The notes beneath the pieces were generated by a model, which was given only the letters and a program-made list of their open reading frames with translations, did no database searches and was not told the origin of the DNA. DNA of 64,000 nucleotides from NCBI GenBank assembly GCA_007693745.1, contig REDA01000006.1:1-64000 (forward strand). Direction: 5' to 3'. The position numbers and the translations under genes were made by a program. The DNA is from Balneolaceae bacterium (lineage in GTDB: Bacteria > Bacteroidota > Rhodothermia > Balneolales > Balneolaceae). Position 1 is the stretch's first letter; every line of letters starts with the position of its first letter. Positions 37,313 through 43,909 of the stretch are shown here, in pieces.

Positions 37313-38623
37313 TCAAAACTGAAGCAGGGCAACACGGTTTAATAGTTCTTTTACTCCCGGATTTCCGGGCGATCCCAGATGGGTGTAGCTACTCATAATT
37401 TCATCCCAGTTCAGAGCAGTTTCCGTTTCACTCTTTCCCTTTACAACTCTGTAGGCTTCGCGGAAACTAATACCCTCTTCACGCACCAGCCTGTAGGCCT
37501 GCTCTGCGGCAAAGAGTTCGGATGTACAGGCCTGCCTTAACGCTTCCGGGTTGGGCTTCATGTGGGTAATGAGAAGCCTGACGGCATCCAGGATCTCAAG
37601 GGATTGACGGAAGGCCAGGATTACCGGCTCTTTGGTGAGCTGCAGATCCCGGTGATAACCACTGGTGAGGTTGGAGGTGAGTGCCTGGAGTGTGGCAGAA
37701 GAGCCGCACAGTTCGGCATGGCGACCGCGGATCAGCTCGGCAAGATCGGGATTTTTTTTCTGTGGCATAATGGATGAACCGGTGGTGATCTCTTCATGGA
37801 GCTGAAAATAGGGAAAGCCTTCCCCGCTGAAGAGGATCACATCCGAGGCAAACCGGCTGATCACCGATGTAACAGCCTGAAGGTACTGAACCAGCTGTAA
37901 TTCGGTCCACCCCCTGGAGAGCTGTGCGGTGGTGGAGCAGAAAAAGGGGAGATCAAACCCGAGTTCTTCAGCTTCTTCGGGGCGGTTGATGGGAAATGTG
38001 GTGCCGAAACCGGCCGCCGTGCCCAGGGGTGAGCGGCTGATCAGAGACCGGATGCCGGGGGAGGCTTCAAGCTGACAGACCAGAAGTTCGGCATAGCCAC
38101 CCGCCCAGAGTGCCACGCTGCTGAGCATCGCCTTCCGGGTGTGGGTAAAACCCGGCATCGGGAGGGCGGAATGCGCACCGGCAAACTCGAGAAGCAGCAG
38201 TGCGGTATCCCGCATCGATCCCAGCACTTCATTCAGCTTCTCTTTTTCAAAAAGACGCAAAGCTGTTAACACCTGATCGTTTCTGGATCGTCCGGTATGG
38301 ATCTTTTTCCCCGTTTCTCCAATCATCTCCACCAGATAATTCTCAATGGCTGTATGCATGTCTTCATCCTGAATCCGAATCACAAACTCCCCCCGTTCCC
38401 ACAGTTTTTGCAGTTCAGAAAGGGAGGCCCTGATTGAAACGAGCTCCTCGCCGGAAAGCACGCCGGCCTTTTGGAGTGCGGCCGCATGCACAGCCGAGGC
38501 TTTCAGGTCGAAGGGAACCAGTTCCTGGTCCAGCAGATAATCCCGCCCCACTGTAAAAGTTTCCATTTTCACTTTTGCATCGCTCCGATGCCCGTCATGA
38601 TCACTATCCCAAAGTTTCGACAT
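37313..38623 (-). CDS. argH: Argininosuccinate lyase
   Basis: Last enzyme of arginine synthesis: argininosuccinate to arginine and fumarate. The fumarase/aspartase superfamily signature GSSIMPQKKNP is exact. Other ASL blocks are IHTGRSRNDQV, MPGFTHTRKAM and SPLGTAAGFGTTF. The length of 436 residues is slightly shorter than the usual 455-465. It is the third gene of the argF-argG-argH order on the minus strand, 159 bp after argG. Confidence 0.96.
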   Translation of the reverse strand: MSKLWDSDHDGHRSDAKVKMETFTVGRDYLLDQELVPFDLKASAVHAAALQKAGVLSGEELVSIRASLSELQKLWERGEFVIRIQDEDMHTAIENYLVEMIGETGKKIHTGRSRNDQVLTALRLFEKEKLNEVLGSMRDTALLLLEFAGAHSALPMPGFTHTRKAMLSSVALWAGGYAELLVCQLEASPGIRSLISRSPLGTAAGFGTTFPINRPEEAEELGFDLPFFCSTTAQLSRGWTELQLVQYLQAVTSVISRFASDVILFSGEGFPYFQLHEEITTGSSIMPQKKNPDLAELIRGRHAELCGSSATLQALTSNLTSGYHRDLQLTKEPVILAFRQSLEILDAVRLLITHMKPNPEALRQACTSELFAAEQAYRLVREEGISFREAYRVVKGKSETETALNWDEIMSSYTHLGSPGNPGVKELLNRVALLQF

Positions 38624-38782: not shown

Positions 38783-40042
38783 CTACTCTGAAAGCTGCTT
38801 TTTAAGCTGGTAAGCCGTCTTCTGAGGCAGATTCCAGAGTTCAATGAAACCGGCAGAAGCGTTCTGATTGAATGCAGCCGATTTATTGAAGGTAGCCAGA
38901 TTTTCATCAAAGAGAGAATGGGGCGACGTCAGGGCCACCACATCGCAATTCCCCTTGTAGAGCCTTAAAGTTACCTCACCGGTCACCTTTTTGTTCTGTT
39001 CATTGATATAAGCCCGGATATTGTCGAGCACAGGCTCAAAATATTTAGCGCCATATACCAGATAAGCCCATTTCTGGTCCATCAGGGTTTTCATCTCATT
39101 CTCTTCTCTGGTTGAGACCAGCTGCTCCAGGTTTTTATGAGCCTGAATCAGAATATGGGCAGCAGGGTTTTCATAGACCCCCCGGACCTTCAGGCCCACT
39201 ACACGATCTTCAATCAGGTGAAAACAGCCGACAGCGTGCTCTCCTCCGATCTTGTTGAGACTCTGGATCAACTCTGTTTTTGGATAGGCCGTGCCGTCGA
39301 GTGTTACCGGTATTCCCTTTTCAAACCCGATTTTAACCAGTTTTTCTTCATCAGGTGCCTGTTTCGGGGTTTTGCACCATTTCAGGATATTTTCGAGGGG
39401 CGGAATCAGTTCGGGTTTTTCAATTTCTCCTCCTTCGGCAGTATTGACCCACATATTTTCATCGTAGGAATAGGGATTCTTTTTGGTCTGTTCAACAGGG
39501 ATACCGTGTTTTATGGCATACTCGATCTCTTCTTCCCGTCCCATGCCCCACTCCCGCACCGGCGCAATGGTTTTCAGTTCCGGGTTGAGAGTTGTGATAT
39601 AGCTTTCAAACCGCACCTGGTCATTTCCCTTGCCGGTACACCCGTGTGCAATCACCTCACACCCGAATTCTGCCGCAAACTGAACAGCCAGTTTCGAAAT
39701 GACAACCCGGCCAAGCGGACATCCCAGAGCATAGCCTCCCTGATAATCGGCGTTGGCCTTCACCGCTTCAGCGCAAAGTTCGGCAAATTCAGGTTTTGCA
39801 TCGTAAACAATGACCTCTTTGGCACCCAGCCGAAGCCCCTTTTTCCGGATCTCTTCCAGATTGTCTGCCCTTTGGCCAATATCCACGGTGAGGGCAATCA
39901 CCTCACATTGATACTCCTCCTGGATCCATTTGATCATGACACTGGTGTCGAGTCCGCCGGAATAGAGAAGCAGGCACCGGTTGAAGGTTCCCTTTTCAGC
40001 TTCGTGGGATGCGACTTTTTTGTAGGTTGTTCCTTGTTCCAT
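38783..40042 (-). CDS. argG: Argininosuccinate synthase
   Basis: Joins citrulline and aspartate with ATP to give argininosuccinate. The PP-loop YSGGLDTSVM is near the N-terminus, after a short extension of about 25 residues. Other recognised blocks are AHGCTGKGNDQVRFE, APVREWGMGREEE and KNPYSYDENMWVNTAEGGE. The 419 residues fit the type-II-like form found in Bacteroidota. It starts 71 bp after argF and belongs to the arginine operon controlled by the leader at 41144-41280. Confidence 0.96.
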   Translation of the reverse strand: MEQGTTYKKVASHEAEKGTFNRCLLLYSGGLDTSVMIKWIQEEYQCEVIALTVDIGQRADNLEEIRKKGLRLGAKEVIVYDAKPEFAELCAEAVKANADYQGGYALGCPLGRVVISKLAVQFAAEFGCEVIAHGCTGKGNDQVRFESYITTLNPELKTIAPVREWGMGREEEIEYAIKHGIPVEQTKKNPYSYDENMWVNTAEGGEIEKPELIPPLENILKWCKTPKQAPDEEKLVKIGFEKGIPVTLDGTAYPKTELIQSLNKIGGEHAVGCFHLIEDRVVGLKVRGVYENPAAHILIQAHKNLEQLVSTREENEMKTLMDQKWAYLVYGAKYFEPVLDNIRAYINEQNKKVTGEVTLRLYKGNCDVVALTSPHSLFDENLATFNKSAAFNQNASAGFIELWNLPQKTAYQLKKQLSE

Positions 40043-40113: not shown

Positions 40114-41061
40114 TTACGGATGGTGTGTCCCGTTTCGGGTGAAGATGGCAGCAAATACGCCGAGCGAGACAATCATCCGGTTTTTTGCCTGCTGATAGAT
40201 CCAGGATTCGGGGTGGTCGATCACTGCATCTGTCACTTCAATTCCCCGGTGTGCCGGCAGACAATGCATAAAACCGGTATGGTTTTTTCCGGTTGCAGAG
40301 AAGAGTTTTTCGTTTACCTGATAGGGCTCGAAATGCATGATTTTATCCTCATAAAGGTGCTCTTCACCCATGGATATAAAGGTATCGGTATAGATGACAT
40401 CGCTCCCTTTAACGGCTTGAAAAGGATCTGAAGTTGCCGTAAACGAACCTCCATGTTCAACGGCAAGAAGTGAGAAGTAGCTCAGGTTGTCCTGACTCCA
40501 GGAGTAGTTTTCAGGTCCGCTGAATTTCATCTGATACCCCATTTTTAAACCAATTTCCGTCAGGGAAAAAGCCACGTTATTCGCATCTCCGACAAAAGTG
40601 ATGGTGAGATCATCTTTTCCGGGAAATTTTTGCTGAATGGTCAGAAGGTCGGCCAGTGCCTGCATGGGATGGTGAAGATTGCAGAGCGCATTGATAACAG
40701 GAATGGTACCGTACTGGCTCATTTTTTCAAGACTGGTATGCGAATAGACTCTTGCAAAGAGGGCGTCGCACCACTGAGAAACGTTCATCATGGCGTCCTG
40801 GAGAGACTCCCGGCTTGTGAAGGGAACCGCCTTACCGTTTGCGAAAAGAAGATCCGATTCAATATGCACCACATCGCCGCCGAGCCGGTTGATGGCCACT
40901 TCCGTCCCGATTTTGGTTCTCAGTGATGGTTTCTCAAAAACAAAGCCGATATTTTTACCCGAGAGCAGGGGCTGAGGTGACTGATGCAGCTTCAGGCTTC
41001 GCTCCAGGATGGATTCAATTTCCTCAGGTTCCAGTTCGCCGATAGTTAGAAAATCTTTCAT
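40114..41061 (-). CDS. argF: Ornithine carbamoyltransferase
   Basis: Makes citrulline from ornithine and carbamoyl phosphate. The carbamoyl-phosphate loop is EKPSLRTKIG (S-L-R-T in place of S-T-R-T, a variant also found in other family members). The second site is LHHPMQALADLLT. The ornithine-loop TDTFISMGEE keeps the SMG motif of ornithine-specific enzymes, and HCLPAHRG is the usual C-terminal signature. These argue for ornithine over the acetyl- or succinylornithine used in some Bacteroidota, but that is inference. 315 residues is normal. It is the first structural gene after the arginine leader and terminator. Confidence 0.92.
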   Translation of the reverse strand: MKDFLTIGELEPEEIESILERSLKLHQSPQPLLSGKNIGFVFEKPSLRTKIGTEVAINRLGGDVVHIESDLLFANGKAVPFTSRESLQDAMMNVSQWCDALFARVYSHTSLEKMSQYGTIPVINALCNLHHPMQALADLLTIQQKFPGKDDLTITFVGDANNVAFSLTEIGLKMGYQMKFSGPENYSWSQDNLSYFSLLAVEHGGSFTATSDPFQAVKGSDVIYTDTFISMGEEHLYEDKIMHFEPYQVNEKLFSATGKNHTGFMHCLPAHRGIEVTDAVIDHPESWIYQQAKNRMIVSLGVFAAIFTRNGTHHP

Positions 41062-41143: not shown

Positions 41144-41179
41144 AAAAAAAAAGCCCGCTCAGTTTGAAGTGAGCGGGCT
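41144..41179 (-). terminator. Leader terminator (attenuator) upstream of argF
   Basis: On the minus strand AGCCCGCTCA (41179-41170), loop CTTCAAAC, TGAGCGGGCT (41161-41152), then eight T (41151-41144). The 10-bp stem is perfect. It stops a minus-strand transcript about 80 bp before the argF start codon, and there is no gene upstream on that strand that it would otherwise serve. It is therefore best read as the terminator of an attenuator. Confidence 0.92.
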
Positions 41180-41195
41180 GGTGTTTAAATCCCTG

Positions 41196-41219
41196 GCAGT
41201 CTGTGGACTGCACACATTT
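41196..41219 (-). promoter_or_regulatory. Leader RNA hairpin and long-range pairing arm
   Basis: On the minus strand GCAGTC-CACA-GACTGC (41211-41196) forms a perfect 6-bp hairpin. Directly before it AAATGTGT (41219-41212) is complementary to ACACATTT (41267-41260) inside the leader peptide codons. This gives a long-range 8-bp pairing that encloses the arginine codons. These are candidate pause and switch elements of the attenuator. Confidence 0.6.
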
Positions 41220-41220
41220 T

Positions 41221-41280
41221 TCACACGCCCGACGGGCGACGGCGGCGAACTGCTAAGACAAATGTGTAAATCTTTTTCAT
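41221..41280 (-). CDS. Arginine leader peptide of the argFGH operon
   Basis: A 19-codon frame, MKKIYTFVLAVRRRRPSGV, with ATG at 41280-41278 and TGA at 41223-41221. Codons 12-15 (41247-41236) are four consecutive arginine codons, CGC CGC CGT CGC. It is followed within 42 nt by an intrinsic terminator and then by argF. This is the layout of amino-acid attenuators such as those of his, trp and leu operons: low arginyl-tRNA would stall the ribosome on the Arg run and keep the terminator from forming. A 5-bp hairpin CGCCC-GTC-GGGCG (41238-41226) begins in the last Arg codon. When its left arm is covered, CGGGC could pair with GCCCG of the terminator's left arm. No Shine-Dalgarno site precedes the ATG, as elsewhere here. 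Confidence 0.8.
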   Translation of the reverse strand: MKKIYTFVLAVRRRRPSGV

Positions 41281-41648
41281 GATTTCGAATTTGGACTTTT
41301 TTCAGTTAAAAAGCAACAGATTTTTAAAAATAGATGCAGGAAGGAGTTTTTCTCTGATGAAAGTATCTCACATCGCCGGAAGGCGGGAAGAGTCAATCAT
41401 TAGAGCACAGGCCCCCTGTACCTCAATCTGTGACAGCTGCCTTGTTTTAGGGTGATTTAAACTGAGAGCAGCAAAATTTTTATCTGAGAAGGGTGTAAAC
41501 AGCGCATTGCGACCAACCCGATCCGTTCGGTTGAGTTTGAGCAGAACGATCCGGATGCATCAATTTAACCTGAAATTAGCTATATTTACAGTTCCTGATT
41601 TGGGTCGGAGTTGCGGAACCCTGCACTCTTTTTTTTAATTTAGTTACT
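41281..41648. other. Divergent promoter region of the arg leader and nfeD
   Basis: Transcripts must start here for the minus-strand arginine leader (ATG at 41280) and the plus-strand NfeD gene (ATG at 41649). The 60 bp before each start are A/T-rich, but no promoter box could be assigned with confidence. No gene-like frame was found. Confidence 0.4.
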
Positions 41649-42986
41649 ATGATCAATAAACAAATTTTGTTATCTCTGCTGCTTCTGATTACAGGTACTG
41701 CTTTCGTTTTGCAGGATTCTGATTCTGAAATCCTCCCGGAAGAGCCGGCGGAGACAACGGTGAGTGTGATTCGTGTGGATGGTATCATCGGCCCGACCAG
41801 CTCCCAGTATATCACCCGTGGCCTTGGCAAATCGATTCAGAATGGAGATGAAGCCTTAATTATTGTACTGGATACACCCGGCGGACTGCTGGACTCTACA
41901 CAGGAAATCGTTCAAACCCTGCTTGGGACTGAGCACCCGACAGTGGTTTATGTCTCTCCCAGCGGAGCCAATGCGGGAAGTGCCGGGACATTTATTACCC
42001 TGGCCGCGCATATCGCAGCGATGGCACCTGCCACGAACATAGGAGCAGCTTCTCCGGTTTCCATGGGGGGCGGAGAGATGGATACCGTTGCGCAGAAAAA
42101 GATTTTCAACTTCTCCGAGAGCTTTATTGAGTCGATCGCGGAGGAGAGGGGGCGCAATACAGAATGGGCCAAACTGGCCGTCAGTGATGGCGCTTCCATT
42201 ACAGCAAATGAAGCCCTGGAGCTGAATGTGATCGATCTGATCGCAGATAATTTGCAGGATCTGCTTGAAAAAATTGACGGAATGGATGTGGATGGCCGTA
42301 TTCTGGTCACAAAAAATGCCACGCCTGTCGAGATTCCCCGAACGCTGGCTGAGATTTTCTTTAGTTTTATCATCCGTCCCGAAGTGATGCTGATCCTTAC
42401 TCTTATCGCCATTTACGGAATCATCGGAGAGGTAACCAATCCGGGAGGTATTGTACCCGGGGTATCGGGTGTGATTGCACTGATCCTGCTCCTCTACGGA
42501 GTTGCCGCAATGCCGATCAACATGGCCGGGTTTCTGCTTATTGGGCTCGCCATCATTCTGTTTATTGCGGAAGCATTTACGCCCGCATTTGGTTTGCTGA
42601 TCGGGGCGGGAGCCGTTTCATTCTTTCTCGGCGCGCTGATGCTCTTCCAGGACCTTCCCGCAGAGATACAGCTCTCTCTCTACTGGCTCATACCCGCAAC
42701 CCTGCTTACCGCGGCATTTTTTGGATGGATTGTTACCTATGCGATCAAATCTCTGTTTAAACCCCCGGTGACGGGACTGGAATCAAGTTATGGCAAACGG
42801 GCAGATGTAACCGATTCAATCTCCCCGGGTCAGCCGGGACGCGTATTTTTTGACGGAGAGTACTGGACGGCTGAAAGTGATTCAGAGATCAGGGAAGGAG
42901 AAAAAGCCGAAATTGTGGAGTACAGGGGGTTGAGGGTGATTGTGAAGCCTTTTGCTCCGGCAAAAAAGGACGTTTCAGGGAAGTAG
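41649..42986 (+). CDS. NfeD-family membrane serine protease (long form)
   Basis: Membrane-bound ClpP-class protease. Signal-like N-terminus (ILLSLLLLITGTAFVL), then the ClpP-like domain: PSGANAGSAGTFITLAAH with probable nucleophile Ser111, and the general-base lysine expected in VAQKKIFN. Four to five membrane helices follow (about residues 235-370), then a C-terminal OB-fold NfeD domain (GKRADVTDSISPGQPGRVFF). The adjacent slipin gene at 43133 is the classical partner; in archaeal homologues the protease cleaves the stomatin C-terminus. Role in bacteria is membrane-quality or microdomain related. Confidence 0.93.
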   Translation: MINKQILLSLLLLITGTAFVLQDSDSEILPEEPAETTVSVIRVDGIIGPTSSQYITRGLGKSIQNGDEALIIVLDTPGGLLDSTQEIVQTLLGTEHPTVVYVSPSGANAGSAGTFITLAAHIAAMAPATNIGAASPVSMGGGEMDTVAQKKIFNFSESFIESIAEERGRNTEWAKLAVSDGASITANEALELNVIDLIADNLQDLLEKIDGMDVDGRILVTKNATPVEIPRTLAEIFFSFIIRPEVMLILTLIAIYGIIGEVTNPGGIVPGVSGVIALILLLYGVAAMPINMAGFLLIGLAIILFIAEAFTPAFGLLIGAGAVSFFLGALMLFQDLPAEIQLSLYWLIPATLLTAAFFGWIVTYAIKSLFKPPVTGLESSYGKRADVTDSISPGQPGRVFFDGEYWTAESDSEIREGEKAEIVEYRGLRVIVKPFAPAKKDVSGK

Positions 42987-43132
42987 AATCATCGGATTTC
43001 TTGCCTGAGAAGGCAGCTGCTGTGCCTTTTCAGTGCAGAATACCGGGAGCCCCCGACTATAGAGGGGCGGATCGAACCCGATGAAAAATTTATCAATAAC
43101 AACAATAATGAATAAACAAATGGTGAAAAATT

Positions 43133-43909
43133 ATGACTGATCCGGGAGCATTAACCAACATGCTGGTATGGGTTATCACACTGGTGATTTTCCTGTCGGT
43201 AATATTGCCGCAGGTATTCAAAATAATGAGGGAATATGAGCGTGGTGTTGTATTCCGTCTTGGAAAATTTCAAAGCACAAAAGGGCCGGGACTTATCATT
43301 CTGATCCCCTTTATTGATAAAGTGGAACGGGTGGATCTTCGGGTTCTAACCATCAATGTGGAAAGGCAGGAGGTGATTACCAAAGACAACGTCACCGTTA
43401 ATGTAGATGCCATCACCTTTTTCCGGGTAGTTGATGCCGAAAAAGCGGTGATTCAGGTAGAGCGTTATATCGCAGCTACATCCATGCTTGCACAGACCAC
43501 CCTAAGGAGTGTGCTCGGGCAGTTTGAACTGGATGAGATTTTGAGTGACCGTGAAAAAATCAACAAGCAGATTCAGGATATCATCGACCGCCAGACCGAT
43601 CCATGGGGTATTAAAGTGGTATCGGTGGAAGTGAAAGATGTGATACTGCCCGAATCCATGAAGCGCGCCATGGCACGGCAGGCCGAGTCGGAGCGTGATC
43701 GCCGCGCTAAAGTGATTAATGCCATGGCTGAATATGAGGCAGCTACCAAACTGGTGGAAGCCGGTGCGATGATTGAGAAGACCCCGACAGCCCTTCAGCT
43801 GCGATATCTGCAGTCGATGGTTGAAATCAGCAATGAAAACTCAACCTTTACTTTTGTACCCCTGCCGATGGACTTTATGGATGCATTCCGTCCGAAGAGT
43901 AAGAAATAG
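43133..43909 (+). CDS. Slipin (stomatin/SPFH-domain membrane protein)
   Basis: 258 residues with one N-terminal membrane helix ([19 protein letters not shown]) and a cytoplasmic SPFH/band-7 domain: [41 protein letters not shown], and the oligomerisation helix with [20 protein letters not shown]. The C-terminal [13 protein letters not shown] resembles the hydrophobic stretch cleaved by NfeD proteases. It follows NfeD by 146 bp and is closed by a terminator at 43929, so the two probably form a transcription unit. Confidence 0.95.

Follow-up and report, generated by a model that had tools for sequence, protein, structure and literature searches.

Predicted ribosome-mediated transcription attenuator with an arginine-codon leader peptide upstream of argFGH in Balneolaceae

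Arginine biosynthesis is a textbook case of control by a repressor, ArgR. In the window, the 64,000-nucleotide stretch of DNA from a Balneolaceae bacterium analyzed here, argF is preceded by a short open reading frame (ORF) with four consecutive arginine codons and by an intrinsic terminator, which raises the question of whether these genes are controlled through a leader peptide instead. Judging from the sequence and from its comparison with relatives, positions 41280 to 41144 very probably act as a ribosome-mediated transcription attenuator by which argFGH transcription is tied to charged tRNA-Arg. Sequence and folding model together gave the features expected of an attenuator: a cluster of end-product codons in a short ORF, a terminator, a mutually exclusive antiterminator, and a geometry that fits them.

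Anatomy and conservation of the argF upstream region

The gene order argF-argG-argH was confirmed with NCBIfam models (Table 1), and the argF start codon, at 41061, lies 83 nt beyond the T run of the terminator. Checked base by base, the anatomy in the original prediction (ORF, arginine run, terminator, hairpins, and argF) was right at every coordinate. Across the 64 kb, on both strands, no other ATG-initiated ORF of 8 to 60 codons carries at least four consecutive arginine codons. Dinucleotide shuffles of the region yielded such an ORF in 9 of 20,000 cases, and never an ORF together with a terminator. The divergent neighbors, at 41649-43909 of the window, are a gene for an NfeD-type membrane protein and an SPFH/band-7 gene.

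Table 1. Features of the argFGH upstream region and operon, in window coordinates
Feature	Coordinates	Strand	Remarks
Promoter-like element	41288..41316	-	-35-like TTGCTT 41316-41311, 17-nt spacer, -10-like CAAATT 41293-41288
Leader peptide ORF, MKKIYTFVLAVRRRRPSGV then stop	ATG 41280 to TGA 41221	-	Read directly; conserved in relatives
Arg12-Arg15 codons, CGC CGC CGT CGC	41247-41236	-	Arg kept in relatives, third bases vary
Long-range helix, ACACATTT (41267-41260) with AAATGTGT (41219-41212)	41212..41267	-	Single-sequence folds
Hairpin 1:2, CGCCC-GTC-GGGCG	41226..41238	-	Predicted to hide antiterminator arm when ribosome is absent
Region 2, antiterminator 5' arm, CGGGC-GT-GTG	41222..41231	-	Includes part of stop codon
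Small hairpin, GCAGTC-CACA-GACTGC	41196..41211	-	Single-sequence folds
Region 3, antiterminator 3' arm, CAC-CA-GCCCG	41174..41183	-	Overlaps terminator 5' arm
Intrinsic terminator (3:4), perfect 10-bp stem and T8	41144..41179	-	Compensatory changes in relatives
Terminator arms, AGCCCGCTCA and TGAGCGGGCT, and T run	41179-41170 and 41161-41152; 8 T at 41151-41144	-
argF, ornithine carbamoyltransferase	40114..41061	-	TIGR00658 above cutoff
argG, argininosuccinate synthase	38783..40042	-	NF001770/TIGR00032 above cutoff
argH, argininosuccinate lyase	37313..38623	-	TIGR00838 above cutoff

The window genome belongs to the Balneolaceae, and its same-genus relatives include Rhodohalobacter sulfatireducens, whose cultured strain WB101 (L065) also has the element. 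An argF of the window's type was present in about 30 of 79 genomes. In the comparison originally proposed as a check, an arginine-rich leader ORF and a terminator precede this gene in relatives as well: they were found in the window and 26 relatives, that is, in all those with sufficient sequence upstream of argF (27/27). Leaders of the genus typically end in LRRRRPxGV or LRRRRPxGA; their N-terminal half drifts while the arginines stay, and ahead of the run the leucine at position -1 is the sole conserved residue. Most members of the genus spell the run CGC CGT CGC CGC, and the window spells it CGC CGC CGT CGC; it begins with CGA in L024 and consists of four CGG codons in L023 and of CGG CGG CGC in L029, and a CGG run occurs in another family. 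The weakest cluster, RR..R, belongs to L026. When we asked which amino acid occurs at least four times within six codons, arginine did so in 23 of the 27 loci, serine in 2, threonine in 1, and the other 17 in none, and shuffled argF upstream regions reached the arginine criterion in 0.4% of cases. About 45 outgroup argF upstream regions (Chloroflexi, Planctomycetes, Actinobacteria, and others) held no arginine-rich leader with a terminator; the few arginine-rich frames among them are expected because the DNA is GC rich.

The distribution of the element was also followed with a covariance model of the attenuator, R1, for which matches above 60 bits were considered strong and those below 40 bits were left uncounted. 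Of the order's 129 genomes, 25 each carried a single strong match. In 23 of these it stood immediately before argF; the other two matches were a locus at a contig end (L139) and an orphan (L155, genome G018). Among 296 Bacteroidota genomes, strong matches were confined to the Balneolaceae. Two weak matches, L159 and L208 (genome G321), look on reading like plain terminators. The orphan, at 1440-1610 of L155, has the leader MCMKFYGNILLMHTRRRRCLLGM followed by a stop and a decayed-looking terminator; its genome gave no match to an arginine-type argF or argG, and a SusC-like gene lies about 330 bp downstream.

A few loci outside the order were also of note. In the Cytophagaceae bacterium ECT2AJA-110-C (L081), an ORF encoding MTNSYNNIVNIRRSYRRYRRS ends in a stop and is found 167 nt before argF, with no T-run terminator. 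Balneolales-type argF genes (50 to 56% identity) occur without an arginine-run leader in Peregrinibacteria, Uhrbacteria, and Gracilibacteria bins (L073, L075, L077, L079, and L082), possibly through gene transfer or binning.

Alternative pairings, ribosome position, and start site

In the original prediction, the antiterminator was the pairing of CGGGC (41231-41227) with GCCCG (41178-41174). That pairing is present but was drawn too short, since the helix reaches into the leader stop codon through GTG (41224-41222) and CAC (41183-41181). In many sister genomes it comprises 10 to 11 pairs; the window's version (7 of 11 aligned pairs, -12.9 kcal/mol) is weaker than those of its sisters. Across much of the genus, region 2 reads GGGCGTGTGATA, and the leader stop codon is the TGA within it; region 3 reads TATCACAAGCCC, whose GCCC forms the base of the terminator 5' arm. 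Across 21 sequences, the antiterminator duplex had a mean energy of -15.8 kcal/mol, compared with -9.3 kcal/mol when region 3 was shuffled and -14.3 kcal/mol when the two arms were taken from different species; the permutation P value for this last comparison (5e-5) is optimistic because the test ignores phylogeny. Both antiterminator helices showed paired changes, with the first pair going from G-C to A-U and inner pairs from U-A to A-U or G-C and from A-U to U-A. In L024, L025, and L027, the same switch is made from different arms, AAATACTT:AAGTATT or GAAATAC:GTATTTC. The terminator stem has compensatory changes of its own. Thus, the covariation of the alternative pairing that had been proposed as a check was found in the relatives, as both paired changes and stronger pairing of cognate than of noncognate arms. 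In single-sequence folds, an ACACA/TGTGT pairing in relatives resembles the window's long-range helix, and a GTAG/CTAC hairpin resembles its small GCAGTC/GACTGC hairpin.

To place the ribosome on these structures, its footprint was taken to end 13 nt 3' of the A-site codon's first base; everything up to that edge was masked, and the remainder was folded as far as the terminator loop. When the A site was occupied by the first or second arginine codon (Arg1 or Arg2), GGGC:GCCC paired with a probability of 0.84 to 1.0 in nearly all sequences, the exception being L002 with Arg1 (0.36). With the ribosome at the stop codon, the antiterminator probability was 0, and without a ribosome it was mostly below 0.4 (exceptions: L010, L019, and L024). 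The geometry is nearly invariant: in almost all sequences, 4 nt (Arg1) or 1 nt (Arg2) separate the GGGC from the footprint edge, whose assumed position is good to a few bases. In this model, a ribosome stalled at Arg3 or Arg4 would itself mask the antiterminator arm, suggesting that sensing is left to the run's first half, two codons long. The earlier proposal that a stall on the run covers CGCCC and frees CGGGC thus holds in the model for Arg1 and Arg2 but fails for Arg3 and Arg4.

The position of the promoter-like element suggests where the transcript begins. In the window, 7 nt separate the -10-like CAAATT from the leader ATG, and in those class-1 relatives whose box the scan recognized, an A-tract with a TTGCAT-like box ends 29 to 31 nt before the ATG. 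This distance leaves room for a spacer of 17 nt, a -10 hexamer, and 6 to 7 nt more, so that transcription would begin with the A of the ATG or right beside it. The leader is therefore probably translated from a leaderless or nearly leaderless mRNA. A start downstream of 41180 had been named as an outcome that would speak against the attenuator; as far as the sequence can answer, the box spacing predicts a start close to the ATG. An internal promoter may lie between the terminator and argF.

On this anatomy, the switch could work as follows. The transcript would begin at the leader ATG or slightly ahead of it. When Arg-tRNA is ample, the ribosome would cross the four arginine codons and reach the stop codon, inside the antiterminator 5' arm; there it would cover region 2 and leave region 3 free, so that the terminator forms and transcription ends ahead of argF. 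A shortage of Arg-tRNA would instead stall the ribosome at the first or second arginine codon, where it covers the CGCCC of region 1 and leaves the GGGC of region 2 free to pair with region 3, so that no terminator forms and argFGH are read. If the leader is not translated at all, hairpin 1:2 would form, and the terminator with it.

Relation to ArgR, T-boxes, and known attenuators

Repression by ArgR/AhrC would likewise silence arginine genes in the presence of ample arginine; however, ArgR/AhrC is a DNA-binding repressor that was not found in this group. The ArgR domains PF01316 and PF02863 were detected in 0 of 79 and 0 of 59 genomes, respectively, but gave matches in the controls, taken from other phyla and from a Bacteroides. 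Among 146 genomes of the class, ArgR was not convincingly found; the single genome that matched had five equal short matches, which looks like a mobile element. Since ArgR is missing from the group, the attenuator would not be an addition to ArgR control, and membership of argFGH in an ArgR regulon was rejected because the repressor was not detected in the relatives. An arginine T-box was also discarded, as the window gave no Rfam T-box match at an E value of 5 or less. All Rfam matches of the window were subthreshold, with leader families below their cutoffs (trpB motif, 28.8 of 59 bits; Trp_leader, 17.3 of 41; Thr_leader, 16.6 of 55). A match to NsiR1 in L028 sits on the attenuator region and was taken as chance.

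The layout is that of the trp, his, leu, thr, ilv, and phe attenuators, in which a leader ORF with tandem end-product codons is combined with 1:2, 2:3, and 3:4 pairings and the stop codon is positioned such that a ribosome completing the leader prevents 2:3 from forming. Unlike these, the window element is predicted to sense arginine, precedes argFGH, and occurs in Balneolales. In the orf34-speF leader of Salmonella, which has two consecutive arginine codons, ribosome pausing at low arginine alters the mRNA fold (PMC6386406). That system differs in controlling an ornithine decarboxylase, through Rho termination, speF translation, and RNase G decay (PMC6386406); its output is not an intrinsic terminator and its target is not arginine biosynthesis, whereas the window has an intrinsic terminator before argFGH. 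The leaderless poly-Cys attenuators of mycobacteria (Canestrari 2020, cited in PMC9031893) share a short ORF with a run of codons for a single amino acid. Leaderless translation is shown there and predicted in the window, and those elements differ in using cysteine, in occurring in Mycobacterium, and in being described as acting on downstream translation. Arginine genes are also placed under leader-RNA control by tRNA charging through arginine T-boxes (PMC1262725), but a T-box binds uncharged tRNA directly, without the leader peptide that the window element has. The same survey, of Actinobacteria, mentions arginine T-boxes elsewhere and found no arginine element in its own set (PMC1262725), and a wide survey of terminators does not mention arginine (PMC2965389). 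In our literature search, which covered few subscription papers, no leader-peptide attenuator of arginine biosynthesis was found, the nearest system being orf34-speF. The mechanism is thus a textbook one, and its amino acid specificity, operon, and clade are apparently new; if read correctly, the element adds arginine to the amino acids under leader-peptide attenuation. Its antiterminator and terminator arms offer directly testable mutants.

Arginine leaders elsewhere in the class and competing explanations

Where the window-type argFGH is absent, other arginine leaders precede other arginine operons. In other Balneolales families (architecture B: L031-L034, L042, L043, and L046), leaders such as MTYNLCNDSRRRRFRRRLERDLCKDCV, ending in a stop, and a terminator precede argG, an uncharacterized gene, and argC, with a GAAGATT:AATCTTC antiterminator and an GGCAGAATCTTC terminator. 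The uncharacterized gene encodes a 359-amino-acid protein with just a weak CbiA-like stretch in Pfam. In other Balneolaceae (architecture C: L035-L041, L049, and L050), leaders mostly ending in PRRR directly before the stop precede GNAT-argG-argC. Most of these lack a T-run terminator. A hairpin follows the stop, and a covarying long-range helix (P = 1.5e-4) connects the first codons of the leader with a site some 60 nt ahead of the GNAT gene; architecture C probably has a different output from the terminator type. In other orders of the class (architecture D: L191-L206), argG is preceded by leaders such as MQPVRPIRPVRRPRRPRGGGTGASC..; most of them come with a terminator and long antiterminator arms, e.g., MQPVRPIRPVRRPRRPRGGGTGASCPVAVW.

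At least four arginines within six codons were found in 7 of 8 loci of B, 7 of 9 of C, and 13 of 17 of D, and no other residue came near arginine except glycine in 5 of D. The stretch of leader downstream of the arginine cluster pairs, in B and D, with the terminator 5' arm, over more than 15 bp in the strongest cases, and most of those leaders that have terminators also have antiterminators. Own arms paired more strongly than foreign ones (B, P = 0.0025; D, P = 1e-4), with the reservation that related sequences are not independent. The arginine cluster and stop were placed as the footprint model requires in 14 of 16 leaders of the other architectures.

These leaders also bear on explanations other than attenuation by tRNA-Arg shortage. 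One is an arrest peptide, in which the nascent leader, or arginine or ornithine bound to the ribosome, stalls translation as in SpeFL or the fungal AAP. RRRRP is indeed strongly conserved in the genus, and leaders with arginine codons can respond to related metabolites, as does the Salmonella speF leader (PMC6386406). However, conservation upstream of the run, unlike in arrest peptides, does not go beyond the leucine at -1, the other architectures retain nothing but arginine richness, and arrest on arginine codons at high arginine would turn biosynthesis on, which is the wrong sense; we consider this explanation very improbable. Even less credible is that the region is just a common structured leader, or that the terminator is unrelated, the arginine run being a by-product of a GC-rich CGCC..GGCG stem. 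Arg3, Arg4, and the end of Arg2 do take part in the 1:2 stem in folds from the genus, so that some of the codon conservation follows from structure, but Arg1 is kept although it lies outside the stem, CGG runs replace CGC/CGT, arginine enrichment recurs in other families with unrelated RNA sequence, the orientation and the downstream arg genes are constant, and a promoter-like box is present upstream. Translational attenuation, with the leader governing ribosome access to argF and the terminator secondary, has hardly any likelihood either: the GNAT-argG-argC leaders that lack a T-run terminator indicate that other outputs exist in the clade, but here a canonical T8 terminator competes directly with the antiterminator, and the argF start is outside the predicted switch.

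Transcription attenuation by tRNA-Arg charging is our preferred reading for argFGH, and for the class as a whole, as sampled in Balneolales and further orders, it seems likely that arginine-codon leader peptides, many of them translated from leaderless or nearly leaderless mRNAs, replace ArgR in the control of arginine biosynthesis. This broader reading has at least four builds, before argFGH, argG-argC, argG, and GNAT-argG-argC, the last of which, without a T-run terminator, must work by another output. A clade without detected ArgR that seemingly reads tRNA-Arg charging would be a natural experiment on RNA replacing a DNA-binding repressor, and a switch rebuilt repeatedly around new operons, arms, and codons is suited to studying how attenuators evolve. 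The argBDCJ operon of the window's own genome has no such arginine leader, so that only half of the pathway would be under the attenuator.

Two other pathways served as controls for the scan. In the same genomes, hisG, the negative control, gave no leaders, while trpE, the positive control, has leaders with WW or WWW tryptophan codons throughout the order (L226-L240) wherever upstream sequence exists, most with a terminator; together, these results calibrate the scan itself as well as the clade's reliance on attenuation. The trpE of the window's own genome (L240, on contig C51 of G000) is preceded by the tryptophan-codon leader MKVYWWNHSLRSEAVAIV.
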